Positions 5,790 to 60,706 of a stretch of DNA of 60,706 nucleotides are shown in pieces. Source of the DNA: Acidobacteria bacterium Ga0077553 (lineage in GTDB: Bacteria; Acidobacteriota; Terriglobia; Bryobacterales; Bryobacteraceae). Where the stretch lies: assembly GCA_001464575.1 (NCBI GenBank), contig LNFE01000266.1, positions 1 to 60,706 of the forward strand. The letters run 5' to 3'. Each line of letters begins with the position of its first letter. Positions within the stretch are counted from its first letter, which is position 1. The notes beneath the pieces are model-generated. The model made no database searches, was not told the DNA's origin, and saw nothing but the letters and a program-made list of their open reading frames with translations. The translations under genes were made by a program, and so were the position numbers.

Positions 5790-6233
5790 ATGGCAATTCT
5801 TGATATTGATGCGATTCGCGATATTCTTCCGCACCGGTACCCGTTTCTCCTGGTCGATCGCATTATCGAACTGGAAGAGGAACGGATCGTCGGCATCAAG
5901 AACGTAACCGCGAATGAACCCTTTTTCGTTGGGCATTTTCCCGAATTTCCGGTGATGCCCGGGGTGCTGATCACTGAGAGCATGGCCCAGGTGGCCGGCG
6001 TGCTGGTGCTGAAGAGCATTCCGGATCGCCATTCGAAGCTGGTGCTGCTGGCGTCAGTGGACGGAGCGAAGTTTCGCCGCCCGGTGCGTCCGGGCGACCA
6101 GTTACGCATTGAAATGACGATGGTCAGCCGCAAATCCACCATCTGCAAGATGACCGGCACGGCGACCGTGGACGGCGTCGTGGTGGCCGAAGCGACGCTG
6201 ATGTGCGTCCTCCGCGATAAGCCGGCGGTGTAG
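5790..6233 (+). CDS. fabZ: 3-hydroxyacyl-[acyl-carrier-protein] dehydratase FabZ
   Basis: FabZ dehydrates (3R)-hydroxyacyl-ACP in type II fatty-acid synthesis and draws on the same acyl pool used for lipid A. The 147-residue hot-dog fold carries the HRYPFLLVDRI N-terminal motif, the catalytic His49 in VGHFPEFPVMPGVL and Glu63 in ESMAQVAG. Length and motifs are normal. It is the first gene of fabZ-lpxA-lpxI, a common lipid A cluster, and lpxA begins 1 nt after its stop codon. A TAACTA-like hexamer lies only about 9 nt before the ATG, so the mRNA may be nearly leaderless. Confidence 0.96.
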   Translation: MAILDIDAIRDILPHRYPFLLVDRIIELEEERIVGIKNVTANEPFFVGHFPEFPVMPGVLITESMAQVAGVLVLKSIPDRHSKLVLLASVDGAKFRRPVRPGDQLRIEMTMVSRKSTICKMTGTATVDGVVVAEATLMCVLRDKPAV

Positions 6234-6234
6234 C

Positions 6235-7011
6235 ATGCCCATCCATCCGACCGCCATTGTCGACCCCTCCGCGCAGATCGACGAGACGGCTGTCATCGGC
6301 CCGTTCTGCGTGATCGGCTCCGACGTGACCATCGGCGCCCATACGGGGCTGAAGGCGCACGTTTTTGTCGAAGGGCCGACGACCATCGGCGAGGAGAACA
6401 TTTTTTACCCATACTCCACCGTCGGCGTGGCACCGCAGGACTTGAAGTATCACGGGGAGCGGGCCGAGACCCACATCGGCAACCGGAACAAGATCCGCGA
6501 GTTCGTGACGATCCACCGCGGCACCACCGGCGGTGGCCTGCTGACGAGCATCGGCAACGATAATCTGCTGATGGCCTATTCGCACATTGCCCACGATGTG
6601 CGAGTAGGTTCGCATTGCGTTCTCGCCAATGGGGTGACGCTGGCGGGTCACGTGATGATTGGCGATTGGGCGGTGATCGGCGCCTTCACCGGGGTGCATC
6701 AGTTCTGCCGCATCGGCAAGCATTCGATGGTGGGGGGCTACAGCGTCATTACGCAGGATGTGATGCCGTTCGCGACAACGGTGAGCAAACGGGAGAACTC
6801 CGTGTTCGGCGCCAATGCCACGGGCCTCGAACGCCGCGGCTTCGATCCGGTGGCGATCGAGCACCTGCAGAACGCCTTGCGCATTTTGACGCGGGCCAAT
6901 CTCAACACCTCCCAGGCGATCGCCCGCATTGAAGCGGAGATCCCGGCCACCGAGGAGATCGCCGATCTGCTCGCCTTTATCCGCTCGTCCGAGCGCGGCG
7001 TTATCAAATAA
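6235..7011 (+). CDS. lpxA: Acyl-ACP--UDP-N-acetylglucosamine O-acyltransferase LpxA
   Basis: LpxA performs the first committed step of lipid A synthesis in the cytoplasm. The 258 residues form a left-handed beta-helix of hexapeptide repeats. The signature SHIAHD places the catalytic His at residue 120, corresponding to H125 of E. coli LpxA. It is followed by LAGHVMIGDWAVIG, VHQFCRIGKHSMVGG and a helical C-terminal domain. The start 1 nt after fabZ indicates translational coupling. The downstream Gfo/Idh dehydrogenase raises the possibility that the acceptor is a 3-amino sugar nucleotide, giving an amide-linked acyl chain. The sequence alone does not decide this. Confidence 0.96.
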   Translation: MPIHPTAIVDPSAQIDETAVIGPFCVIGSDVTIGAHTGLKAHVFVEGPTTIGEENIFYPYSTVGVAPQDLKYHGERAETHIGNRNKIREFVTIHRGTTGGGLLTSIGNDNLLMAYSHIAHDVRVGSHCVLANGVTLAGHVMIGDWAVIGAFTGVHQFCRIGKHSMVGGYSVITQDVMPFATTVSKRENSVFGANATGLERRGFDPVAIEHLQNALRILTRANLNTSQAIARIEAEIPATEEIADLLAFIRSSERGVIK

Positions 7012-7015
7012 AGTC

Positions 7016-7828
7016 ATGCCCTACGGCCTCATTGCCGGCAATGGCCGCTTCCCCATTTTGGCGCTCGAAACCGCGCGGGAGCTGGGCGTGGCGGTAGTAG
7101 CGATTGGGATCAAGGAAGAGGCCGCGCCGGAAATTGAAGCCTTGGCGACGAAGACGTATTGGATATCGCTGGGCGCGCTCGGCAAGCTGATCGACATCTG
7201 CAAGGCCGAAGGCATCACCGAGCTGATGATGGCCGGACAGGTGAAGCACGCGTCGATCTTTTCTTCGATTGCGCCGGACTGGCGGCTGGCGAAGCTGCTG
7301 TTTACGCTTAAGGAAAAGAATACGGAGGCGCTGATCGGCGGGGTGGCCGGGGTGTTGGCCGCCGAGGGGATTCGGCTGGTGGATTCGACGCTGCTGCTGA
7401 AGCCGCTGCTGGCCGGCGAAGGGGTGCTGACCAAACGGAAGCCGAATGCGGACGAAGAGAAGGAGGTGCGCTACGGGCGCCGCATCGCCGCCGCGCTGGC
7501 GGAGTTCGACGTCGGCCAAGCGGTAGTGATCAGCAACCGCGCCTGTGTCGCGCTGGAGGCAATGGAGGGTACGGACGCCATGCTCCGCCGGGCCGCATCG
7601 CTTTCGAATGGTCATCCGCTACGGCTCATCAAGAGTTCGCGCCGCCGTCAACACATGCTTTTTGACGTGCCCGTGGCCGGCCTCGGCACCATCGCGACGA
7701 TGCGGGAAGCCAACGCCACCATCCTCGCCTGCGACGCCGACCGCACATTGCTGCTGGATAAGGGCGAAATGATCGCCCAGGCCAACGCTGCGGGCATCTG
7801 CATAGTAGGCTACAAAACAGATGAGTAA
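7016..7828 (+). CDS. lpxI: UDP-2,3-diacylglucosamine pyrophosphatase LpxI (DUF1009)
   Basis: LpxI hydrolyses UDP-2,3-diacylglucosamine to lipid X, replacing LpxH in many alphaproteobacteria and acidobacteria. The 270-residue product begins YGLIAGNGRFPILALETARE, typical of the family. It includes ELMMAGQVKHASIF and the C-terminal domain with IGGVAGVLAAEGIRLVDSTLLL, GQAVVISNRACVALEAMEGTDAML and MLFDVPVAGLGTIATM. I use the ATG at 7016, 4 nt after the lpxA stop; the open frame further upstream only shadows lpxA. Its stop overlaps the next start by 8 nt. The adjacency of lpxA and lpxI makes the assignment firm. Confidence 0.93.
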   Translation: MPYGLIAGNGRFPILALETARELGVAVVAIGIKEEAAPEIEALATKTYWISLGALGKLIDICKAEGITELMMAGQVKHASIFSSIAPDWRLAKLLFTLKEKNTEALIGGVAGVLAAEGIRLVDSTLLLKPLLAGEGVLTKRKPNADEEKEVRYGRRIAAALAEFDVGQAVVISNRACVALEAMEGTDAMLRRAASLSNGHPLRLIKSSRRRQHMLFDVPVAGLGTIATMREANATILACDADRTLLLDKGEMIAQANAAGICIVGYKTDE

Positions 7829-8783
7829 ACTACGAATTGCCGTCGTCGGCGCGGGCGCCTTCGGCCGCAATCACATGCGGGTGATCCGTTCCCTGCCGAA
7901 CGCGGAACTCGCCGCCGTCTGCGATGCCGACCTCGAACGAGCCAGCGCCGCGGCGGCCGAGTTCGAAACCCGCGCGCTGCCGCTGGCTGAACTGGCCGGG
8001 GCCGTGGACGCGGCTATCGTCGCCGTGCCGACGTCCGTCCATGCGGAAGTGGGTTGCCGGCTGCTTGAAGCTGGGATCGATGTCCTGGTGGAAAAGCCGA
8101 TCGCCCCGACGCTGGCCGAAGCCGACGCCCTGATTGACGCCGCCGCGCGGAATGGGCGCATTCTGCAGGTGGGGCACCTCGAACGCTTTAATCCGGCGAT
8201 TATGGCGCTGTCGGAACGCATCAGCGTGCCGCTGTTTTTCGAGATCCACCGGTTGAGCATGTTCACGCCGCGGGCGTTGGACGTGGATGTGGTGCTCGAC
8301 CTGATGATCCACGACATCGACATCCTGCTCGCGCTCACCGGCAAAATGCCGGAAGAGGTACGGGCGGCCGGCATCTCGATTCTGTCGGAGAAGGTGGATA
8401 TCGCCAATGTCCGGCTGGCTTTCCCGGGCGGCTGCGTGGCGAATGTCACCGCCAGCCGGGTCTATACCGAGCGCGTCCGCAAGATGCGTCTCTTCCAGCC
8501 GCATCAATACATTTCGCTCGACTACCACAAGCAGGAGGCCGTCGCGTTCTCCGTCTCCGGCGACCGGCAGATCGGCTACGACCCGTTCCGCATCACCAAG
8601 GCCGAGCCGCTCGCACTGGAGCTGGCCCATTTTGTCGATTGTGTAACCGACCGGAGCACTCCCCGCGTCGATGGTGCAGAGGCCCGCAAAGCGCTCGCCG
8701 TTTCCATCGACATCCTGCACCATATCGACGTTCACGCCCGCACAATCCAGGAAACGCTCGCCGCACACCAGATTCAACCGTGA
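7821..8783 (+). CDS. Gfo/Idh/MocA-family NAD(P)-dependent oxidoreductase of the lipid A cluster (possible GnnA-like)
   Basis: This 320-residue protein has an N-terminal Rossmann fold (VVGAGAFGRNHMRVI), the EKP motif (VLVEKPIAPT) and the GHLERFNPA segment typical of sugar-nucleotide Gfo/Idh enzymes. A histidine cluster, LMIHDIDILLALTG, lies in the C-terminal domain. It overlaps lpxI by 8 nt and is followed by the TonB-like gene with a 4-nt overlap. In Acidithiobacillus and Leptospira the homologous enzyme GnnA oxidises the 3-OH of UDP-GlcNAc so that GnnB can aminate it. No GnnB-like aminotransferase is in this window, so that role is a hypothesis. An oxidoreductase of sugar nucleotides is the safe call. 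Confidence 0.85.
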   Translation: MSKLRIAVVGAGAFGRNHMRVIRSLPNAELAAVCDADLERASAAAAEFETRALPLAELAGAVDAAIVAVPTSVHAEVGCRLLEAGIDVLVEKPIAPTLAEADALIDAAARNGRILQVGHLERFNPAIMALSERISVPLFFEIHRLSMFTPRALDVDVVLDLMIHDIDILLALTGKMPEEVRAAGISILSEKVDIANVRLAFPGGCVANVTASRVYTERVRKMRLFQPHQYISLDYHKQEAVAFSVSGDRQIGYDPFRITKAEPLALELAHFVDCVTDRSTPRVDGAEARKALAVSIDILHHIDVHARTIQETLAAHQIQP

Positions 8784-42265: not shown

Positions 42266-43042
42266 ATGGCAAAGAATTTTATGGATTTGACGGGCCGCGT
42301 GGCGGTCGTGATGGGCGGGACGTCGGGCATCGGCGCCGTGCTGGCCGTGGGATTGGCCGAGGCCGGTGCGACCGTGGTGCCGACGGGACGCCGCGAAGCC
42401 GAACTGAACACGGTTTGCGACCAGATTGAAGCGCTGGGCGGCAAGACGCTGCGGCAGATCTGCGACGTGCAAAAACGGGAATCGATCGATGCGCTGCGCG
42501 ATGCCGTGGTGGCGAAGTTTGGCCGGGTGGACATCCTGCTGAACGTCGCCGGCATGACCTTCCGCAAGAAAACCGCCCAAGTAGAAGAGGCCGAATGGAA
42601 CCGGCTGATGGACGTCAACGTCACCGGCACGCTGCGCGCCTGCCAGAGCTTCTATGAGCCGCTGAAGGCCCACGGCGCGGGCCGCGTGATCAACATCGCC
42701 TCACTGAGCTCCTACGTCGGTTTGCTCGAAGTAACCGCTTACGCCACCTCGAAAGCCGCCGTGCTGCAGTTGACCCGGCAGTTGGCCGTCGAGTGGGCCA
42801 AGGAAGGCATCAACGTCAACGCGATCGCGCCGGGCGTGTTCCGCACCGAGCTGAACGCAGCGCTGCTGGACGGCACCGAGCGCGGCAAAGAGTTCCTGAT
42901 GCGGACGCCGATGAAGCGGTTCGGCCAGCGGCAGGAGCTGCTCGGCGCGGCGCTGCTGCTCGCCTCAGACGCAGCGAGCTACATCACCGGGCAGTGCATC
43001 GCGGTGGACGGTGGCTTCCTGGCGAGCGGCGTTAACCAATAG
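42266..43042 (+). CDS. Short-chain dehydrogenase/reductase (gluconate 5-dehydrogenase-like)
   Basis: This 258-residue SDR has cofactor motif GGTSGIGAVLA, TGRREAEL (Arg suggests NADP preference), NVAG and catalytic S...YATSK (Ser in INIASLSSYVG, Tyr/Lys in AYATSKAAVLQL). The C-terminal part IAPGVFRTELNAALLDGTERGKEFLMRTPMKRFGQRQEL and ITGQCIAVDGGFLASGVN resembles gluconate 5-dehydrogenase and 2-keto-3-deoxygluconate oxidoreductase-like enzymes. The start ATG at 42266 is chosen by alignment to family N-termini. Its 3' end overlaps the propeller gene by 11 nt. Confidence 0.9.
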   Translation: MAKNFMDLTGRVAVVMGGTSGIGAVLAVGLAEAGATVVPTGRREAELNTVCDQIEALGGKTLRQICDVQKRESIDALRDAVVAKFGRVDILLNVAGMTFRKKTAQVEEAEWNRLMDVNVTGTLRACQSFYEPLKAHGAGRVINIASLSSYVGLLEVTAYATSKAAVLQLTRQLAVEWAKEGINVNAIAPGVFRTELNAALLDGTERGKEFLMRTPMKRFGQRQELLGAALLLASDAASYITGQCIAVDGGFLASGVNQ

Positions 43043-44288
43043 CAAAGCAGTGCAGGCGGCGGCCGGTGAGCGCGTAGAGCTCGCCGGCCGAGCCGAGAAT
43101 GGGGCTGGCCACCTGCTCTTCGCCGGGCATGCGGCAGAGCGGCCGGGCTTCGCCTTTGGCGTTGAGCGCGACGACAGCGTCGCCAACGGCGGTAAGGAGT
43201 TGGCCGTCGGCAGAGACCGTGGCGCCGGCGACACGGGCGGGGGCTTCGTACTGCCAGGCGAGTTCGCCGGCGGCTGAATAGCAGAGCACGCGCTGCTGAG
43301 AGAGCAGGTAGACCCGATGGTCGTAGCCGACGATGGGCGGGCGCTGGAAGACGGTCAACCCTTCGGGCAGGCGGCTAGCGACGTACTCGCCGGTGGGAGC
43401 AACGATCCAAAGCTGCTGGCGGTGGTTAACGGCGCAGAGCAGGTAGGAGCGTCCGGTTTCATCGAGGCTCAAGCCGTGGGGCGCCATGTCGATGACGAGG
43501 CGGCGTTGGGAGTTGAGCGAGAGATCGAGGAACTCGAGGACGCCGGGCCGGGCGAGGACGGGAAAGTCCTCATGCATGGCAACGTGCAGCGGGACGTTGA
43601 GACCGTCGCGGGAGGCCGTGGCGTTGCCGGCGGCGTCGAAGACCTGCAGGTACATCACGCGCGTGGGAGCCGGATTATGCGGGCTCGACGATTCGGCGGT
43701 GCTGGCGACGAGGGTGACGCCGCTGGGGCGGCGATGGAAGTACGTCCGCTTGGTGCCGATGCCGCCGGCGGCGCTGAGGACGAGGCCGGCCGCGGCCGTC
43801 GTGAGATTGAAGGACGCGATGCGGCCATAGCGGTCCGGGACGAAGAAGGCGTTGTTGCCGGGCAGGAGCTCCGCGTCCCGGCCGGTGGTGACTCCCTGGG
43901 TGACCGGCTTCTGCGCAACGAAGAGATGGTAGCCGGCCAGGCCGAGGGCGAAGACAGAGGCGCCGGAGGCGAGCAGGCCGGCGGGCTTGATGCCGGGATC
44001 GATGGGAGCGTTCCACGACGCGGTGAACGGGCCGGGGGGAAGCGGGCGGGTAAGGCGGGAGTTGAGGCGTTCGTTAGCGTAGGGCCGGAGGTAACCGGTG
44101 GGGGCGCCGGGCGCGGCGGGAGCAAGCGGGGGCAACGCGCCGGGGCGGGGCGGGACGAGTTTAGCGGCGGATTGTTCGGTGAGCGAGGTCATGGCTTTGG
44201 CCTTCGGGGGTTTGGGGGTCTGACAGGAGGCGCCGTTCGAGCCGAGCGCGGCGGCGAGAGAGACGGAGTGAAACTGCCGCCTATGCAC
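43032..44288 (-). CDS. Exported beta-propeller protein coupled to the large OmpA/metalloprotease gene
   Basis: This 418-residue protein starts at a GTG at 44288, inside the last codons of the upstream 1304-residue gene (8-nt overlap). The leader RRQFHSVSLAAALGSNGASC looks like a twin-arginine signal with a possible lipobox Cys. A Pro/Ala-rich linker and a hydrophobic stretch (GLLASGASVFALGLAGYHLFVA) follow. The rest forms short repeats of propeller type (LSLDETGRSYLLCAVNHRQQLWIVAPTGEYVASRL, VGYDHRVYLLSQQRVLCYSAAGELAWQY, GELYALTGRRLHCF), like PQQ/WD-type blades. No catalytic motif is seen. Coupling suggests a partner or binding role for the upstream protein. Confidence 0.65.
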   Translation of the reverse strand: MHRRQFHSVSLAAALGSNGASCQTPKPPKAKAMTSLTEQSAAKLVPPRPGALPPLAPAAPGAPTGYLRPYANERLNSRLTRPLPPGPFTASWNAPIDPGIKPAGLLASGASVFALGLAGYHLFVAQKPVTQGVTTGRDAELLPGNNAFFVPDRYGRIASFNLTTAAAGLVLSAAGGIGTKRTYFHRRPSGVTLVASTAESSSPHNPAPTRVMYLQVFDAAGNATASRDGLNVPLHVAMHEDFPVLARPGVLEFLDLSLNSQRRLVIDMAPHGLSLDETGRSYLLCAVNHRQQLWIVAPTGEYVASRLPEGLTVFQRPPIVGYDHRVYLLSQQRVLCYSAAGELAWQYEAPARVAGATVSADGQLLTAVGDAVVALNAKGEARPLCRMPGEEQVASPILGSAGELYALTGRRLHCFAIG

Positions 44289-47200
44289 TGGCCACGACCG
44301 TGGCTCCGGGCACGGCCGGACGGACGACGCGCGATTGGACCAGCGCATTCGTCAGGCCGGTGGCCGGGTTCGGAAGGGCGCTACAATCAATGCCGACCAT
44401 GTCGGCGTACCACTTCCAGGCGTCGGCGGCCTGGAGCTGGGCGGGGGTGAGGTGGAGCGTGGTGGCGTTCTGCCAACCGGTGGGCCCGGCGTTGACGACA
44501 CGGATGGTGAAGTGGCGCGGGTGGCTCGCGTCGACCGCGTTGACCGAGGTGGTGTAGGCGGCCTGGTTGGCGGGGTTTCCAACGTTGGCGAGGTAACTGG
44601 TGTTGGCGGCCGTGCCATCGTTGATGAACTTCTCCACCAGCGTGCGCGGCATGAATTGGACCAGGCAGTTCGTGAAGTTGGCGGGGGCGATGGCACCGTT
44701 GAAAACGAACAGGCGATTCATGTTGGTGTCGACGCTGATGAGGAAGCTCTGGATGGGGGTGGTGATGTCGGTGTGGGCCGTGGCGTTCGGGAACTGCCAG
44801 GCGATCTTAACGAGCACGCACTGGATGCCGTCGTACTCCACGCCCGGCTTGAGGCGGTTGGCGTAGGAGTCCTTGCCGAGCATGTAGAGATAAGTATCGA
44901 AGTTGCCGCGGGTGCCGCCGGTGCGGCGGGAGTCGATGATGAGCGGGAAGTACTCGAAGCAGCGGCTGTTATTGGGGGCCGTGGGATGGGGCGGCAGCTT
45001 GTATTGAAAGGCGCCGGACTCGATCTGCAACGGGGTGCTGAGGATGCCGCGGACCCATTCGGCGGAGTGCCAGAAGTAGCGGTTCTCGATGGTGAGGATG
45101 CCTTCCATCATGAGAGCCCCGGAGACGACGGAGAAGGGATCGCCGGGCACCTGGCTACCGAAGCCGGCGAACTCATAGGAGCAGGCGCGGTTGCTCCAAC
45201 GCTCGTTGTATTCGTCGGGTAGGGCGTAGCCGTGGCCGACTTCGTGGGCTGCTACGAAGAAGCCGGTGGGATCGGCGGCCTCGTTGCCGGAGCTGAAGTT
45301 GCCGATGCCGGTGGCGCCGAGCATGTCGGCGCGGGGCTGCACAATGACGTTGAGCCGGAAGTGAGAGCGGGGCTGGGGCACGTCCTGACAGTAGAGGAAG
45401 GGCCGGCAGCGGAACGGCATGGCGCCGGTTTGGGGCTTGTAGAGGAAGTCCCCCGGGTTGGTGACGACGGCGGACCCGTCGGGAAGGGTGATGGTCTCCG
45501 GACCGTTCCACCGCTTCGGCACATTTTCGAGCATCGCCTTCTTATAGTTCCCGTTGTTGAACGGGGTGCCGTCGGGATTGGTGGGCGGCGGGGTGGTGAA
45601 GTCGAAGTGGAACCGGAAGTAGTTGAGGTTGATGGCGAGTTCGTCGGTGCCCTCGAGGTCGCAACAGCGGAGCAGGGCGGTGTCGTAACGTCCAACGAAG
45701 AAGCCGGGATGGGAGGGCACCGGGTTGGTGTTCTCGTTCGTGCGTCCGGCGGGGAGGCAGGCGGTGCGGACGCGATGGATGTCCTGGAAGCAGTAGGGCT
45801 GGATGGAGAAGAAGCGTTGGGTATTGGAAGTGGGACGGGGATTGATCTGGTTCGGGGGAGGCTGGCCGGTGGCAACGGCGTCGATCCAGATCCGGGCGGC
45901 GCGGGCGCCGATGACTTCGTGAGTTCCGGTGTCCGGGGTGCGCTCCGAGAAGGCTTCGTAGAGGTTGCCGTTGACGACGACGAGGCGGGTCCAATCGGCG
46001 TAGTCGTGGACGTAATGCTTCACTGGCATCTTGACTTCGGAGTACGGGAAGAAGGCTTTCGTCACGTCCGTGCCGAGCTTCCAGACGCCCTGATCCTTGA
46101 TATCCGCATTGCCGCCCGTGGGCTTTTTGAACTGATGGAAGAAGATGAGGGCGAGATCGTCGCCGCCGACCGGATGCGGGGCGCCAGTGACATCGACGAG
46201 GATGAGATCGTCGAGCGAGAAGGTGAGCGGCTTGGCGGCGTCCATGGAGGTGAGGACGTCGGCGTCGGTGAGCGCATCGTAGAACTTGTTGGTGGCGGCG
46301 CCGCGGGTGAAGTACTTGTTCGACTTCCAGAGCACCGGCAGATCGTAGAGCTTGATGCGGCTGGGGCTGGGCTGTTGCCGGCCCACATCGGTGATGGTCT
46401 CGATGACGCGGGTGGCGCCGTCGGTGGAGGAGATGAACGTCTCGGCCGGCTGCGTAAACTGCAGCAGCACCTTGGCGAGCGGGCGGGCGTCGGCGGATTT
46501 GTCGGCCTTGCGTTGGACAATCCACGGGAGCGCCTGGGTCTGGTTGGCGGGGTCCGCCGTTTTGATGGTCCAGTTGGAACGAGTGTCGGGATTCGGCACC
46601 ACGCCGCGGGCGGTGGAGCCGTCGCGGAAGCCTTCCAGCAGAATGGGCGGGGCGCTGATACGTTTGCCGTTGTGCGCGGCGTGGCCGAAAGCGCGGTCGA
46701 AGAATTCCAGGCGAACGAACTGCCAGTGGGGATCGAGCTGCATCTCCACCGGGGCGCCGTCGGCACCGAGAGTGGCGGAGGTAGGCGTCAGGTTTTCAAA
46801 GCGGAACTCGGTTTTGTTATAGAGCGGGTCTTCGACCTTGTTCCAGTCCGAGGTGGTGAGCGACCATTCTTTCGGCAGCTTGAAGAGGTGGTAGAAATCT
46901 TTGGCCGCGGCGTCGACATCGGCGGCGGGGATCCAACGATTTTTGTCCGCGTTCTTGGTGGCGGCGGTGGCGACGCCGATGTAATGGTCCGGGTGTTTGA
47001 AGGCGAGGGTGAAGAATCCCTTGGCGCGATCAAAATCGAAGATCAGCAGGCCATCGGCGATGGTCTTCTCTTCCTGGTCGCCGGCCGGGTTGACGACCGT
47101 GACGGGGACGTCCTTCGGGAAGGGCTGGCACTTGCCTTCGGGGTCGAGGTAGACGAGCTTCAGGAAGACGCGGAGCTTGCGGTCGTCGATCGGTACCACC

Positions 47201-48195
47201 GGCCCTTCGCACGGCGAGGAGCCGACCATGCGGTCATAGAAGCGGCAGGCGAAGGTGTCGCGGTCGGCGACGTTGGTGCGGCGCTTGGCTTGGAACTGGC
47301 GGCGGGTGGCGGAGTCGGCCCAGAAGCGTTTGAGGCAGCCGGCCGTACCCTCCGAGGCCCGCGGGCAGGGCCAGCGATCATTATTGATCTTGGCGCCCGC
47401 GCGGAAGAGCAGCGCCATGACGCGGCGGTTGACCGAGTTTTCGGCGTTGCGTTCGGTCTTATCGGCGGAGTTGGTGAAGCGGGTGTTCTCTTCGGCGGAG
47501 AACATCATTTGCGGGTTGAATTCGGAACAACCCTGGTAGTCGGCCTTGCCGCCGGGGTCCTGGCCGCGGCCGAGAAAATCGGTCTTGGCGAGGACGACCG
47601 GGCAGAGGAAATCCATGTAGGCGCGGAAGAGTTTTTCGCGAGTGAGGGGTCCGGCGACGCCGTCGTCGGTGAGGCCGTTCTTCCGCTGAAATTCTTTAAT
47701 GGCGTTGGTGGATTGCGTGGTGGCGGAGCCGGAGGTGTTGCCCGGGTCAAAGCCGACCGCCTTGAGCATCACTTTGAGCTGATTGAGCTTCCAGTCGTCG
47801 CCGGTGCCTTCGGAGTTGTTATAGAGCGCTTCCCAGATGCCGGTGTCCCGCGTGGTGACGGCGTAGACGGCGCGGACGCGGCGACCGGAGAGCACCTTGT
47901 TATAGACTTCGTCGCCAACCGGATCGGCGTGACCGAACATGGTGAGCGGCGAGCCGGGCAGGGCCGATTTCAGGGTGGCGAGTTCCTGAAACTCGGGCTG
48001 CGCTTCCGGCAGCACCATCGACGAATCGAAAGCGAAGCGCAGGTCTTCGAGCTTCCAGCAGCCGACGGGGATGAGCTCCTCACGGATGGTGTTCTTTTCC
48101 TTGCCGGTGGAGGGCGCCACGTGAACGGGCAACACGCTCGCGCCGGGCATGGAAGCGGTGTGGCCACCGTCGGTTTTTTTGTCGCCGTATCCCAA
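44281..48195 (-). CDS. Large multidomain protein: OmpA-like, PG_binding_1, Cys-rich linker, M64-like metalloprotease signature
   Basis: This 1304-residue protein has no signal peptide. Residues about 50-118 are OmpA-like (LRFAFDSSMVLPEAQPEF, FGHADPVGDEVYNKVLSGRRVRAVYA). Residues about 133-192 match PG_binding_1 (IKEFQRKNGLTDDGVAGPLTREKLF). A Cys-rich region, about 205-330, includes ERNAENSVNRRVMALLF, a second OmpA-like end, and WPCPRASEGTAGC...FACRFYDRM...SPC. The C-terminal part has H984-E-V-G-H988 followed by GYALPDEY, resembling the HExxHxxxLxDEY of M64 peptidases. About 20 cysteines are spread along the chain. The N-terminal half resembles a family known to me only as hypothetical peptidoglycan-binding proteins. 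Secretion by a non-Sec route and an effector or wall-associated protease role are inferences. Confidence 0.75.
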   Translation of the reverse strand: MGYGDKKTDGGHTASMPGASVLPVHVAPSTGKEKNTIREELIPVGCWKLEDLRFAFDSSMVLPEAQPEFQELATLKSALPGSPLTMFGHADPVGDEVYNKVLSGRRVRAVYAVTTRDTGIWEALYNNSEGTGDDWKLNQLKVMLKAVGFDPGNTSGSATTQSTNAIKEFQRKNGLTDDGVAGPLTREKLFRAYMDFLCPVVLAKTDFLGRGQDPGGKADYQGCSEFNPQMMFSAEENTRFTNSADKTERNAENSVNRRVMALLFRAGAKINNDRWPCPRASEGTAGCLKRFWADSATRRQFQAKRRTNVADRDTFACRFYDRMVGSSPCEGPVVPIDDRKLRVFLKLVYLDPEGKCQPFPKDVPVTVVNPAGDQEEKTIADGLLIFDFDRAKGFFTLAFKHPDHYIGVATAATKNADKNRWIPAADVDAAAKDFYHLFKLPKEWSLTTSDWNKVEDPLYNKTEFRFENLTPTSATLGADGAPVEMQLDPHWQFVRLEFFDRAFGHAAHNGKRISAPPILLEGFRDGSTARGVVPNPDTRSNWTIKTADPANQTQALPWIVQRKADKSADARPLAKVLLQFTQPAETFISSTDGATRVIETITDVGRQQPSPSRIKLYDLPVLWKSNKYFTRGAATNKFYDALTDADVLTSMDAAKPLTFSLDDLILVDVTGAPHPVGGDDLALIFFHQFKKPTGGNADIKDQGVWKLGTDVTKAFFPYSEVKMPVKHYVHDYADWTRLVVVNGNLYEAFSERTPDTGTHEVIGARAARIWIDAVATGQPPPNQINPRPTSNTQRFFSIQPYCFQDIHRVRTACLPAGRTNENTNPVPSHPGFFVGRYDTALLRCCDLEGTDELAINLNYFRFHFDFTTPPPTNPDGTPFNNGNYKKAMLENVPKRWNGPETITLPDGSAVVTNPGDFLYKPQTGAMPFRCRPFLYCQDVPQPRSHFRLNVIVQPRADMLGATGIGNFSSGNEAADPTGFFVAAHEVGHGYALPDEYNERWSNRACSYEFAGFGSQVPGDPFSVVSGALMMEGILTIENRYFWHSAEWVRGILSTPLQIESGAFQYKLPPHPTAPNNSRCFEYFPLIIDSRRTGGTRGNFDTYLYMLGKDSYANRLKPGVEYDGIQCVLVKIAWQFPNATAHTDITTPIQSFLISVDTNMNRLFVFNGAIAPANFTNCLVQFMPRTLVEKFINDGTAANTSYLANVGNPANQAAYTTSVNAVDASHPRHFTIRVVNAGPTGWQNATTLHLTPAQLQAADAWKWYADMVGIDCSALPNPATGLTNALVQSRVVRPAVPGATVVASA

Positions 48196-48207
48196 GTTCG
48201 CGGTCTC

Positions 48208-48254
48208 CTAGGGTGGTGCGGGTAACTCGACAATCGTTACGTCCGATCTAGGGT
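48208..48254. promoter_or_regulatory. Two CTAGGGT motifs upstream of the large gene
   Basis: CTAGGGT occurs at 48208-48214 and 48248-48254, both in the 90-nt gap before the large OmpA/metalloprotease gene (ATG at 48195). The second extends to CTAGGGTACC. The same half-site CTAGGGTA forms the PadR palindrome at 42193-42212. A PadR-type input is possible but chance cannot be excluded. Confidence 0.3.
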
Positions 48255-57328: not shown

Positions 57329-58648
57329 TCACGGCTGCGGCCAACCGCCCGCCAACGCCTTAAAGAGCGCTACCGATTCGACAAACGCCTGTGTCCGCGC
57401 CGTCGACCGCTGAAACTCGGCGTCGAGCGCTGCCCGCTCCGCATCAAGGACGGCCAGGAAGTCGGTGAGTCCGGCCCGTTGCAAGTCAGCCGCGAGATCG
57501 AGCGAGCGCCGTGCGGCATCGACAGCGTTGGCGAGTTTCGCTTCCCGCTCCTGCTGCCGCTGGACGGCGGCCAAGGCGTTCGCGGCCTCCTCGATCGCCG
57601 CCACGATCTGCTGACGGTAAGCTATACGCTCCTGCTCCACGCGGGATTCCTGCGTGGCGATGTTCGCCTTGATCCGGCCCGAGTTGAAGATCGGCAACTG
57701 CAGTTGCGGCCCGAGACTGAAGAAGTTGCCCCCGCCGAACGAGATGTTGCTGAGGGCGGTGCCCTGCCGGCCCACCAGGCCGTTCAGCGTGATTTTGGGG
57801 TAGAGGTCCGTGCGAGCTTGCTTCAGGCGGGACATCGCGGCGTTCAGCCGGGCCTCGGCCGCCCGCACGTCGGGGCGGCGCTTCAAGAGTTCGCTTGAAT
57901 AGGTCCCGGTCACGTTTGGCATCGCCGCCGCAGACGCCGAAGCGACTTGATACGCGGCGTCCTCGGTCAACAGCGCAAGCCGGTGGCGGTGAGCGGCGAG
58001 CTCGCTTTCAAGCGGCGGGACGGCCGCCTCGGTGGTTGCCAGCAGCGTGCGTTGCCGCTCAATGTCCAATTGCGAGGCTAGTCCCGCGCGGGTTCGTTCC
58101 TCGGTCAGGCTCAACAGGTCCTTCTGGGCGGCGATGTTGCGCCGGGTGATCGCCAAACGCTCTTCAATACCGCGCAGCTCGAGATAGTAGCGGGCCGCTT
58201 CGGCGGTAACCGTGATCAGCAGATCCTCGCGCCGCTCCTGCGAAGCGAGCACGTCCGCGCGAGCCGCCGCCAGCGCGGCCCGGTTCGAGCCGAACAGATC
58301 CATCTCCCACCGCATATCGAGGCCGGCCTGCAGGATGCCCGTCTCGAAAGGCGCGACAAACGAGCCCGTGGGCTGCTGGCCGGACGGCGTGGGGATTCGC
58401 GCCACGCCTTGGGTGAAGCCGCCGCGCAGCCGCTGGCCGCCGCCGGTTAAGTTGATCTCCGGGCCCAGCTTACTGCGGGACTGCCCCGTCGCGGCCCGCG
58501 CCTCGGCGATGCGCTCGGCCGCCGTTAACAGGTCCAGATTGCGCGCCGCGACGGTCTCGATCAACCGGTCGAGTTCGGGATCCTGGTATACCTTCCACCA
58601 ACTCGCCGGATCGACGGCGAGGGCGCAGAGAAGGAGCGAGAACAGCAT
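57329..58648 (-). CDS. TolC/NodT-family outer-membrane efflux protein
   Basis: This 439-residue protein is an outer-membrane factor with two TolC repeats. A short signal (MLFSLLLCALAVDPASW) precedes WWKVYQDPELDRLIETVAARNLDLLTAAERIAEARA. Later segments KRRPDVRAAEARLNAAMSRLKQARTDLYPKITLNGL and YRQQIVAAIEEAANALAAVQRQQEREAKLANAVDAARRSLDLA are typical of the NodT subgroup. A clear NodT lipobox is not obvious. It ends the ABC efflux operon with the adaptor (1-nt gap), ATPase and permease upstream. It is distinct from the CusC-type channel at 19776-20984. Confidence 0.9.
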   Translation of the reverse strand: MLFSLLLCALAVDPASWWKVYQDPELDRLIETVAARNLDLLTAAERIAEARAATGQSRSKLGPEINLTGGGQRLRGGFTQGVARIPTPSGQQPTGSFVAPFETGILQAGLDMRWEMDLFGSNRAALAAARADVLASQERREDLLITVTAEAARYYLELRGIEERLAITRRNIAAQKDLLSLTEERTRAGLASQLDIERQRTLLATTEAAVPPLESELAAHRHRLALLTEDAAYQVASASAAAMPNVTGTYSSELLKRRPDVRAAEARLNAAMSRLKQARTDLYPKITLNGLVGRQGTALSNISFGGGNFFSLGPQLQLPIFNSGRIKANIATQESRVEQERIAYRQQIVAAIEEAANALAAVQRQQEREAKLANAVDAARRSLDLAADLQRAGLTDFLAVLDAERAALDAEFQRSTARTQAFVESVALFKALAGGWPQP

Positions 58649-58649
58649 C

Positions 58650-59702
58650 CTAGTGGGCCTCCTCTTGAGCCTTAATCGAAAGGTCCATCTGCTGACCGGG
58701 GTAGAGCGGCGCCCCCTTGGGCAGGGCGTAAATCGCCTGGAGAACCCGCGTGTCTACACGTTCGGTGGCGTCGCCCGTCAGATTCTTCTTGGGCACCACA
58801 TAGGGCTCCAGGCGAACGAAGGTCAACTCGTACTTCAACTGCGCATTCCCCCTCACCGAAGCGCTGGCCTCGGTGTCCGGGGCGAACCGCCAGGCTTCTT
58901 TTTCGTCAATGTCGGCCCGCAGATGCAGTTGGTCGACACGGCCCATCAGAATCAAGGGCTGCGCCAGGGTGCCGCTGGCCGCGTACTCGCCGGGCCGCAC
59001 TTTGCACTGCAGAATCTTCCCGCTGATCGGGGCCCTCACCTTCAGCCGATCGAGGTCCGCCTGAACCCGCGCCACCTGTGCCTGCGCCTGCCGGAGTTCG
59101 GCGCGCGCCACTTCCAGGTCCGGCTTCCACGTGCCGGCGAGCAGCAGCTTCATGTTCGATTCCGCCTGTCGTACCCGCGCCGCCGCGCTCTCCACCGCCC
59201 GGCGCCGCCGCAGCAGATCTTCCTGCTTGATCGCCCGGGGATCCTTCACAGACTCCATCAGCCGCAGCTGCAAGGCAGCGTCTTCGAGCTGCGCCTTCGC
59301 TTCATCGATGCGCGACTGCGCCGGCGGAATCTCCTCCGGCCGCGGCGAGGCCTCGAGCTTGGCGAGGCGCGACTGCGCCAGGGCAACGGCCGATTCCCGC
59401 AGCGTCAATTCCGCGCGCAGATCGCGGTCATCGAGCGAGAAGAGCAGTTGCCCCGCCTTCACGTCGTCCCCGGCTTTGACGGCCACTTGGGTGACCAAGC
59501 CCGGCACCGGCAAGCTGACAGCGATGTTCTCGCTGGCCGCCTCCACCAAGCCGACCGCGCCGAGCTGGTTGGTGTAGGCCGCCACCGGCGGCGGGGCGGG
59601 TGGTTCCGCATAGACCACCTTCGGCGTGGCGCGATTCGTGGAGATAATGGCAAACGCAAGCGCAAGAATGGCGAGGACGGGCATTCCGTAGCGGACTAGC
59701 AT
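58650..59702 (-). CDS. HlyD/DevB-family periplasmic adaptor of an ABC efflux system
   Basis: This 350-residue adaptor has an N-terminal membrane anchor ([20 protein letters not shown]). A lipoyl half-motif (VSLPVPGLVTQVAVKAGDDVKAGQLLFSLDDRDL) precedes a long coiled-coil hairpin (about residues 115-225) and the second half-motif (LKVRAPISGKILQCKVRPGEYAASG). A C-terminal beta-barrel region follows. Together with the ATPase and FtsX-like permease upstream this is a DevBCA/MacA-type arrangement. The start overlaps the ATPase gene end by 7 nt. Confidence 0.9.
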   Translation of the reverse strand: MLVRYGMPVLAILALAFAIISTNRATPKVVYAEPPAPPPVAAYTNQLGAVGLVEAASENIAVSLPVPGLVTQVAVKAGDDVKAGQLLFSLDDRDLRAELTLRESAVALAQSRLAKLEASPRPEEIPPAQSRIDEAKAQLEDAALQLRLMESVKDPRAIKQEDLLRRRRAVESAAARVRQAESNMKLLLAGTWKPDLEVARAELRQAQAQVARVQADLDRLKVRAPISGKILQCKVRPGEYAASGTLAQPLILMGRVDQLHLRADIDEKEAWRFAPDTEASASVRGNAQLKYELTFVRLEPYVVPKKNLTGDATERVDTRVLQAIYALPKGAPLYPGQQMDLSIKAQEEAH

Positions 59703-60403
59703 GGTAAGGCTCCTGGGTTGAGTTCAATCTTGTCCACCAGACCGTCGTTCATGTGAGCGATGCGGTCGGCAAAGGGAAAAATACGGCTGTCGTGGGTCAC
59801 CACCAACACGGCGCGCCCGGGGCGCACGGCCACGGTCCGCAGCAGCTCCATCACGTGATGGCCGGTCTCGGCGTCGAGCGCCGAGGTAGGTTCGTCGCAG
59901 ACGATGAGCTGCGGCTCATGGATCAAGGCCCGGGCAAATGCCACCCGCTGCTGCTGGCCGCCGGAAAGCTGATTCGGCATCGCGCGGGAGCGCGCGGCCA
60001 GGCCGAGGTCGGCAAGGATGGCTTCAGCCTTCTCGACGGCGGCCCTGCGCTTCCACCCGGCGGCCAACAACGGCACTGCGGCGTTTTCCGCTGCCGTCAG
60101 CGCCGGCAACAGGTTGAACTGCTGGAACACGAAACCCAGGTTCTTCCGCCGAAACTCCACCGCCGCCGAGCCCTTCAACTGCGCCAGCGGCGTGCCGAGT
60201 ACTTCGAGCTCACCCTGCGTCGGGTTCAGCAGGCCGGCGATGACGCTCAACAGCGTCGTTTTGCCGCACCCGGAAGGGCCAACCAGAAACGTCATCTCCC
60301 CTCGCGGCACTTCAAAATTGACCCCCCGCAACACCTTCACCGCATCGTCGCCGGTTCCAAAGGTCTTGTGTAAATCGCGGCACTGCACAGCTGTTTCGGT
60401 CAT
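59696..60403 (-). CDS. ABC transporter ATP-binding protein (DevA/LolD/MacB type)
   Basis: This 235-residue ATPase has Walker [14 protein letters not shown]-loop [13 protein letters not shown], signature [15 protein letters not shown], Walker [13 protein letters not shown] and the switch His in VVTHDSRI. It closely fits the LolD/MacB/DevA group. The start at 60403 (ATG) follows the permease stop by 4 nt. The cargo is not identified; glycolipid or another envelope component is possible for DevBCA systems. Confidence 0.93.
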
Positions 60404-60407
60404 GGGA

Positions 60408-60706
60408 TTAGCCTCGGAATACAACCGCGGGTTCGAGCACGATGACGCGGCGAACGCTGACGGCGCTCGCCAAAAACACGATCAGGAAAACCGCGGCGGC
60501 GGTGCCCATCATGATCTCCGGCAGCATCCGGAAGCCGCGCAGGTCGAGATTATCCGCCGTGGCGGCGAAGAAGCCCGCCGTCATCGCGATGCCCAGCCCG
60601 TAACCCACGGCGCCCACGATCACGGCCTGCATCAGAATCATCCCCACAATGCGCCAGTCGCTGACGCCAATCGCCTTCAGCGCTCCGAACTGCTTGAGGT
60701 TTTCGA
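60408..60706 (-). CDS. FtsX-like ABC transporter permease, C-terminal end (truncated by window)
   Basis: The C-terminal part of a DevC/MacB-type permease: about 99 codons to a stop at 60408. The visible FtsX block reads ENLKQFGALKAIGVSDWRIVGMILMQAVIVGAVGYGLGIAMTAG, then a loop and MMGTAAAVFLIVFLASAVSVRRVIVLEPAVVFRG. The EFGVLRAIG-like sequence (here QFGALKAIG) is diagnostic. It forms an operon with the following ATPase, adaptor and outer-membrane factor. The N-terminal helices lie outside the window. Confidence 0.9.
   Translation of the reverse strand, partial: ENLKQFGALKAIGVSDWRIVGMILMQAVIVGAVGYGLGIAMTAGFFAATADNLDLRGFRMLPEIMMGTAAAVFLIVFLASAVSVRRVIVLEPAVVFRG

Follow-up and report, generated by a model that had tools for sequence, protein, structure and literature searches.

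What does a protein do that has wall-binding folds at one end, a metalloprotease-like HExxH motif at the other and no signal peptide? We addressed this question for an open reading frame (ORF) of 1304 aa on contig LNFE01000266.1 of Acidobacteria bacterium Ga0077553, within a stretch of 60,706 nucleotides that we refer to as the window. An earlier note on this DNA had suggested a wall-targeted protease exported by a contractile or other secretion system. Our analysis points to a more specific answer, to which we give a probability of about three in four: the ORF encodes a cargo effector of a type VI secretion system (T6SS), with (i) an N-terminal head for docking, (ii) a C-terminal tail of zincin type, and (iii) an immunity protein encoded by the partner gene. 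We favor a T6SS because the protein lacks a leader, the head is modular, its tails are swapped, an adaptor is linked to and co-occurs with the head, the genome holds T6SS core genes, and tail and partner are constantly coupled. Secretion, protease activity and immunity are what we infer from sequence, and delivery by a T6SS rather than by an extracellular contractile injection system (eCIS) appears most likely.

The effector coding sequence lies at 44281..48195 on the minus strand; place and length agree with the earlier note, which lacked the strand. Translation starts at a TTG codon, with a ribosome-binding site, AGGAG (48205..48209, minus strand), 9 nt upstream. The start codon falls at the same aligned place in all five relatives checked (three ATG, one GTG, and one TTG). 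The open frame spans 1308 aa in all, only four codons beyond the TTG, and leaves no room for an upstream start adding a signal peptide, so the protein is leaderless as had been claimed. It contains 19 cysteines, close to the roughly 20 reported before. The source genome is a 6.45-Mb assembly of 308 contigs and is 93% complete.

The head module (residues 1-335; 47191..48195, minus strand, as are all of its parts) was delimited by AlphaFold2, a 68-row alignment, and homologues joined to other C-termini. AlphaFold2 predicted it as a single compact fold from the 68 rows (pLDDT 93.5, pTM 0.92). The first part of an OmpA domain occupies residues 43-120 (47836..48069). An OmpA-like motif had been placed at about 50-118; the profile matched 53-120, with a score for our protein of 20.7 bits, below the Pfam cut-off of 27.2 for PF00691, which six of the nine relatives scanned exceed. 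Next comes a PG_binding_1 domain at residues 139-189 (47629..47781), matched at E 1.4e-11 where about 133-192 had been proposed, and seen also in the AlphaFold2 model. The alignment and model then place the last helix and strand of the OmpA domain at residues 247-264 (47404..47457), ending in NRRVMALLF. This sequence had been noted earlier as a second OmpA-like end; it belongs to no second domain, being the last strand of the same, interrupted one. We thus read the model as an OmpA fold with PG_binding_1 inserted between its second helix and its last helix and strand. Foldseek is consistent with this reading: the best matches were OmpA domains, which are 122-150 residues long but spread over some 220-230 alignment columns (E of about 0.01), and separate matches to PG_binding domains covered about 57-59 columns at a similarly modest E of about 0.01. 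A Cys-rich segment (residues 265-335; 47191..47403) ends the head, with C277, C287, and C317 invariant and C329 nearly so.

Further invariant positions in the 68 rows include G88, H89, D91, R106, C223, R257, and R258. D91 and R106 align with identical residues of OprF; we take them to be the wall-binding pair of OmpA domains that contacts diaminopimelate. As judged by hydropathy only, heads carry no hydrophobic leader (n = 73; best 12-residue hydropathy, median 0.92 and maximum 1.86).

The tail (residues 336-1304; 44284..47190, minus strand) is predicted to be a zinc protease on the basis of a motif and its conservation. The motif, HEVGHGYALPDEY (residues 984-996; 45208..45246, minus strand), comprises HEVGH (984-988) and, right after it, GYALPDEY, in exact agreement with the earlier description. 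The pattern HExGH-x5-D-x-Y (H984, E985, G987, H988, D994, and Y996) is kept in all 11 aligned tails, from the window and ten other genomes, down to 31% identity; two of these rows, G006 and G013, are nearly identical (2 differences in 976 positions). This invariance, together with full-length orthologues at 81% and 73% identity, establishes that the observation is real and not due to chance. Tails of this type occur with the same head, with a diverged OmpA/PG-binding head (G049), with another N-terminus (G081), and with no head (G106). The proposed assignment to peptidase family M64 was rejected: no M64 model matched our protein at E<=1 or the 11 tails at E<=0.1. We found weak likenesses to M6, M7, and M12-type zincins, none of them over a cut-off where one was given. 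Membership in M6 was not supported by TIGR03296 (18.8 bits against a cut-off of 110.8) or by PF05547, which matched two of 11 tails with a best E of 0.025. For snapalysin (M7), the tail profile matched 1c7k at E 0.0034 over 61 positions, and PF02031 matched one of 11 tails at E 0.098. In an M7-type HExxH-x5-D site, the aspartate is presumably the third zinc ligand; the corresponding D994 is invariant here.

Immunity-like neighbors had been suggested as something to look for, and one is present. The partner coding sequence (43032..44288, minus strand) encodes 418 aa from a GTG at 44288, a start picked by comparison with relatives, and overlaps the effector stop by 8 nt. Such an overlap of the tail gene with the partner start recurs in ten of ten readable loci (window, G003, G005, G006, G013, G016, G049, G081, G106, and G210; G018 ends at a contig edge); its length, 4 to 23 bases, varies with the choice of start codon. 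Five of the ten partners lay outside the profile, yet matched it at 3e-45 or better. The window's member shares 24-69% identity with others of this diverse family. By eye, partner N-termini resemble lipoprotein or Tat/Sec signals; that of the window is Tat/Sec-like and among the less clear ones. PQQ_2 matched six of nine members at E<=0.01, and the window's member has a PQQ-like propeller match below the Pfam cut-off. The partner follows the tail, whatever the N-terminus or head, which is the pattern of an effector and its immunity protein. This exported-looking, propeller-like protein is therefore a likely immunity protein, as predicted from its sequence and gene order. We also note an island in G049 (L160, contig C112, 7105-17166, minus strand) that holds a tail of our type on a diverged head, the partner gene, and adaptor-like genes; beyond these come another head gene and, after it, a lipoprotein-like gene.

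We next describe how widely the head occurs. At E<1e-20, the head query matched 21 of 131 genomes, several of them with more than one copy, including 18 of the 19 of the same genus; the sole genome of the genus without it, G007, is 62% complete. At E<=0.001, it matched 80 of 131 genomes, with most matches spanning only the OmpA or the PG_binding part. Copy numbers from the full-length query are lower bounds, as at most three candidates were scored per genome, against at most 16 for the head query. From a scan across named genomes, we used the best 80 of 133 head relatives; gene calling lost the head in four of these loci (L073, L079, L121, and L127), and head-locus counts therefore use 76. The open frames that contain the head range from about 400 to 1935 aa. 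By the names in their records, rows of the head tree come from ten phyla: Acidobacteriota, Armatimonadota, Planctomycetota, Zixiibacteriota, Eiseniibacteriota, Pseudomonadota, Nitrospirota, Fibrobacterota, Gemmatimonadota, and Myxococcota. Individual cases may be binning errors, because most of these rows come from metagenome-assembled genomes; named strains with a head include Bryobacterales F-183 (G081) and two Aquabacterium strains. Both F-183 and Aquabacterium humicola RJY3 (G221) match VipB. Our source genome carries two head genes. The second (L141, contig C134, 581-3466, minus strand) codes for 961 aa; its tail is of another HExxH type (HEAAH; 90% identity to L059 and L072). Behind this gene stands a lipoprotein-like gene that is truncated by the end of the contig.

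The C-termini joined to these heads differ, in line with the earlier suggestion of a conserved targeting half and variable C-terminal halves: 76 tails fell into 20 sequence clusters. On a quick head tree, 19 tail classes required 30 changes, compared with a minimum of 18 and a shuffled mean of 50.1; tails are therefore partly inherited and partly exchanged. Each of three zincin tail types, ours and two others, requires multiple changes (2, 8, and 2). HExxH was present in 29 of 33 long tails (>=300 aa), compared with 0.6 of 33 in shuffles, one of 43 short tails, and 20 of 460 neighboring genes. With long tails grouped at 80% identity, 25 of 29 groups carried it, as did five of the eight clusters that hold long tails. 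Many heads with short tails are directly followed by a separate large gene, among them genes for phospholipase D (L085), tyrosinase (L060), Amidase_2 (L122 and L074), and M15-type proteins (L116 and L074), and one with a matrixin-like match below cut-off (L090). Of the 20 neighbors in the scans that gave the Amidase_2, M15-type, and matrixin-like matches, 14 matched no Pfam model at E<=0.01. Some long-tail heads have a lipase-like gene in second or third place after them.

The link from head to T6SS runs through a putative adaptor family of about 210 aa; all 18 of its members have PG_binding_1, and six of the 18 have LysM. In 18 of 76 head loci, the adaptor gene immediately precedes the head. 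It also immediately follows 15 of 25 vgrG genes, which were drawn from 20 chosen neighborhoods; the latter figure is favored by that choice, because the neighborhoods of G003, G006, and G010 were picked partly for a weak head-query match in a neighbor. An adaptor match was found in all 50 head-positive genomes and in three of 20 head-negative ones (Fisher, 1.4e-13). Fisher values serve as guides only, because the genomes are related, because 17 of the 50 with a head supplied rows for the adaptor model, and because every one of the 20 without it belongs to the family of our source genome. The PG_binding_1 domain of the adaptor resembles that of the head, which explains some of the likeness between the two but not the gene order. 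In a Zixibacteria locus (L153), genes for VgrG, a 606-aa protein, the adaptor, and two head-cargo pairs share a strand and span about 12 kb; a single ORF on the opposite strand was called among them. In a Chthonomonadales locus (L108), a head that carries our tail type and stands with its partner gene has a VgrG-like gene upstream, and in two Gemmatimonadetes, a PAAR match adjoins the adaptor and head by coordinates. As a separate observation, VipB gave no match in Gemmatimonadetes G216 and G217 (L119, L120, and L155), although both the head and the adaptor are present there along with VgrG and PAAR; their system may be a divergent T6SS or another contractile system.

The source genome itself has matches over cut-off for TssA, TssB, TssC, Hcp, TssE/F, TssG, a ClpV-like ATPase, and VgrG. 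In its T6SS cluster, the adaptor stands behind VgrG, and a PAAR match, which runs over a stop, follows two genes on; TssM lies elsewhere in the genome. Among the 50 head-positive genomes, 41 matched VipB, 46 matched VgrG (Phage_base_V), and 39 matched PAAR.

Several observations weigh against a T6SS effector. The earlier note had proposed a search for VgrG and PAAR among the neighbors of head homologues, and they stand beside heads in some other genomes; in the window, no T6SS gene was recognized near the ORF. The second head gene of the same genome has neither VgrG nor adaptor on its 18.7-kb contig, and VgrG occurs within the flanks of only two of 80 head loci. VipB, Phage_base_V, and PAAR matches are missing from 9, 4, and 11 of the 50 head-positive genomes, respectively, and none of the three was matched in G204 or G224. 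The only sheath of G093 (98% complete) is of phage type, and in G002 (93% complete) VgrG went unmatched while VipB is represented solely by the divergent paralogue; incomplete assemblies may explain some of the absent T6SS markers, though not surely all. The adaptor match of G215 is partial (positions 80-214 of 214). VipB is a weak associate of the head (41 of 50 head-positive versus 10 of 20 head-negative genomes; p 0.015), and we consider it too weak to serve as sole evidence for a T6SS. Finally, the structure prediction for the tail was poor (pLDDT 52 from 11 rows) and gave no confident fold.

We considered three other explanations. That the protein acts outside the cell as a nutritional or predation protease, secreted by a T6SS or otherwise, with its neighbor as activator, inhibitor, or scaffold, strikes us as unlikely. 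Toxicity of the effector is a prediction, digestion is a conceivable use for large proteases and a tyrosinase, and a partner family as diverse as this one would suit such roles; nevertheless, the gene overlap and the pairing in every readable locus fit effector and immunity better, and the known analogue VgrG2bC-ter/PA0261 is similarly laid out, according to the available part of its description (PMC6899460). Somewhat less probable still is cargo of an eCIS or phage-tail-like particle. A leaderless effector would suit such a particle, LysM is a core part of eCIS in the portion of the literature available to us (PMC10673891), and 10 of 50 head-positive genomes match the eCIS/phage-type sheath profile PF04984, including G093, which lacks VipB. 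This profile is, however, equally common among head-negative genomes (four of 20), our source genome has no match to it at 93% completeness, and the adaptor there follows VgrG in a T6SS cluster with ClpV-like and TssG genes. Thus, of the contractile systems raised by the earlier note, the links to VgrG, PAAR, and adaptor indicate a T6SS, and the eCIS it had named as an option loses ground.

The least probable of the three, by our estimate, is a structural or accessory part of the spike or baseplate, whose head would bind peptidoglycan for crossing the wall and whose tail would be a protease remodeling the producer's own envelope. OmpA and PG_binding_1 are indeed wall-binding folds, both head genes of the source genome lie away from its T6SS cluster, and 42 of 43 short tails lack HExxH. 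Against a structural part, the tails are very diverse and have moved from one head lineage to another; some of the short-tail heads are followed by a gene for phospholipase D, tyrosinase, an amidase, or an M15-type protein; and the exported-looking partner tracks the tail and not the head.

If the ORF encodes a T6SS effector, as we favor, delivery might proceed as follows. While still in the cytoplasm, the folded head would dock on the VgrG spike, probably via the LysM/PG_binding_1 adaptor; docking would be in trans, because vgrG and the adaptor of this genome sit on another contig than the ORF. Sheath contraction would then inject the effector into a neighboring cell, most likely into the periplasm of a Gram-negative rival. 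There, OmpA and PG_binding_1 may hold the effector at the peptidoglycan while the C-terminal zincin cuts envelope proteins. The producer would be protected by the exported-looking, propeller-like partner, a step suggested by a strong genetic pattern.

To our knowledge, T6SS effectors share no common signal, and those outside the Proteobacteria are little known. A searchable head opens a way into the effector repertoires of Acidobacteriota, Planctomycetota, Gemmatimonadota, and other phyla, and names candidate cargo, adaptor, and immunity genes. It also raises the question of whether a wall-binding fold serves for docking on the spike or for tethering in the victim. We tentatively consider a bolder possibility, which we regard as doubtful: the head could be a cross-phylum T6SS delivery domain that also clamps its cargo to the victim's peptidoglycan, with large fused cargo nearly always a zinc protease from one of several sequence families. 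The invariance of D91 and R106 across the 68 heads would fit such a clamp. If so, bacteria of ten phyla would share one design of wall-tethered warhead.

Parts of this picture are already known from the available portions of published work: N-terminal T6SS delivery domains on polymorphic C-termini as a class (MIX, FIX, RIX, PIX, and WHIX; PMC12135965 and PMC10435454), LysM/PG_binding_1 proteins in vgrG loci (PMC10673891), and a periplasmic metallopeptidase effector with exported immunity (PMC6899460). The head shares features of the delivery-domain class: one N-terminal domain on unrelated C-termini, no leader, and, at loci other than the window's, linkage to a VgrG-linked adaptor. RIX, as described in the part of PMC10435454 available, is similarly an N-terminal delivery domain with polymorphic C-termini, with fused effectors as well as adaptor forms with separately encoded cargo, and with orphan genes. 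It differs in being about 55 residues long and, in that source, confined to marine Gammaproteobacteria, compared with about 330 residues and ten phyla here. The head has an OmpA fold with a PG_binding_1 insert, and the likeness to RIX is one of description, with no homology claimed. WHIX is likewise mostly joined to periplasm-acting toxins; the main text of PMC12135965, as available, does not contain the words OmpA or LysM, and we set WHIX apart by description only.

LysM proteins of vgrG loci bridge VgrG and effector in the accessible part of PMC10673891, and our adaptor family has PG_binding_1 throughout and LysM in six of 18 members. That source reports PG_binding_1 from Gammaproteobacteria alone, none of its six domains is the OmpA-plus-insert head, and its main text lacks the word OmpA. 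VgrG2bC-ter (Tpe-Tpi), in what was available of PMC6899460, also pairs an HExxH effector with a downstream exported immunity gene, and acts in the periplasm; the partner here differs in being a propeller-like protein of about 420 aa, and the solved structure of VgrG2bC-ter was absent from the sequence and profile matches of our tail, giving no sign of homology. Tox-OmpA of PVC-delivered toxins places an OmpA fold in an injected toxin too, always at the extreme C-terminus in the part of PMC3482391 at hand; here it is N-terminal and interrupted by PG_binding_1. Within the open-licence PMC literature, part of which was available and which leaves preprints outside its scope, we found no prior description of the OmpA-plus-insert head, its spread over phyla, or the HExxH bias of its tails.

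We close with further features of the source genome. Between the adaptor and PAAR of its T6SS cluster (L140) lies a gene for 664 aa (6200-8194, minus strand) with no Pfam match; its homologues are 53-95% identical in seven other vgrG neighborhoods and 28% identical in L156. Further adaptor copies stand before large unidentified genes, with no head, at L163 and L164 (contigs C146 and C76), which are perhaps other effector loci, and one copy stands alone (L165, contig C244). A second, divergent VipB-like sheath gene (L171, contig C180, 5312-6767, minus strand) occurs in 18 of the 19 genus genomes searched and is split over two frames in this genome and in G005. In the window, genes for an ABC transporter, a membrane-fusion protein, and a TolC-like protein lie in a row at 57329-60424 on the minus strand; from a reading of their ORFs, they look like a tripartite efflux cluster.

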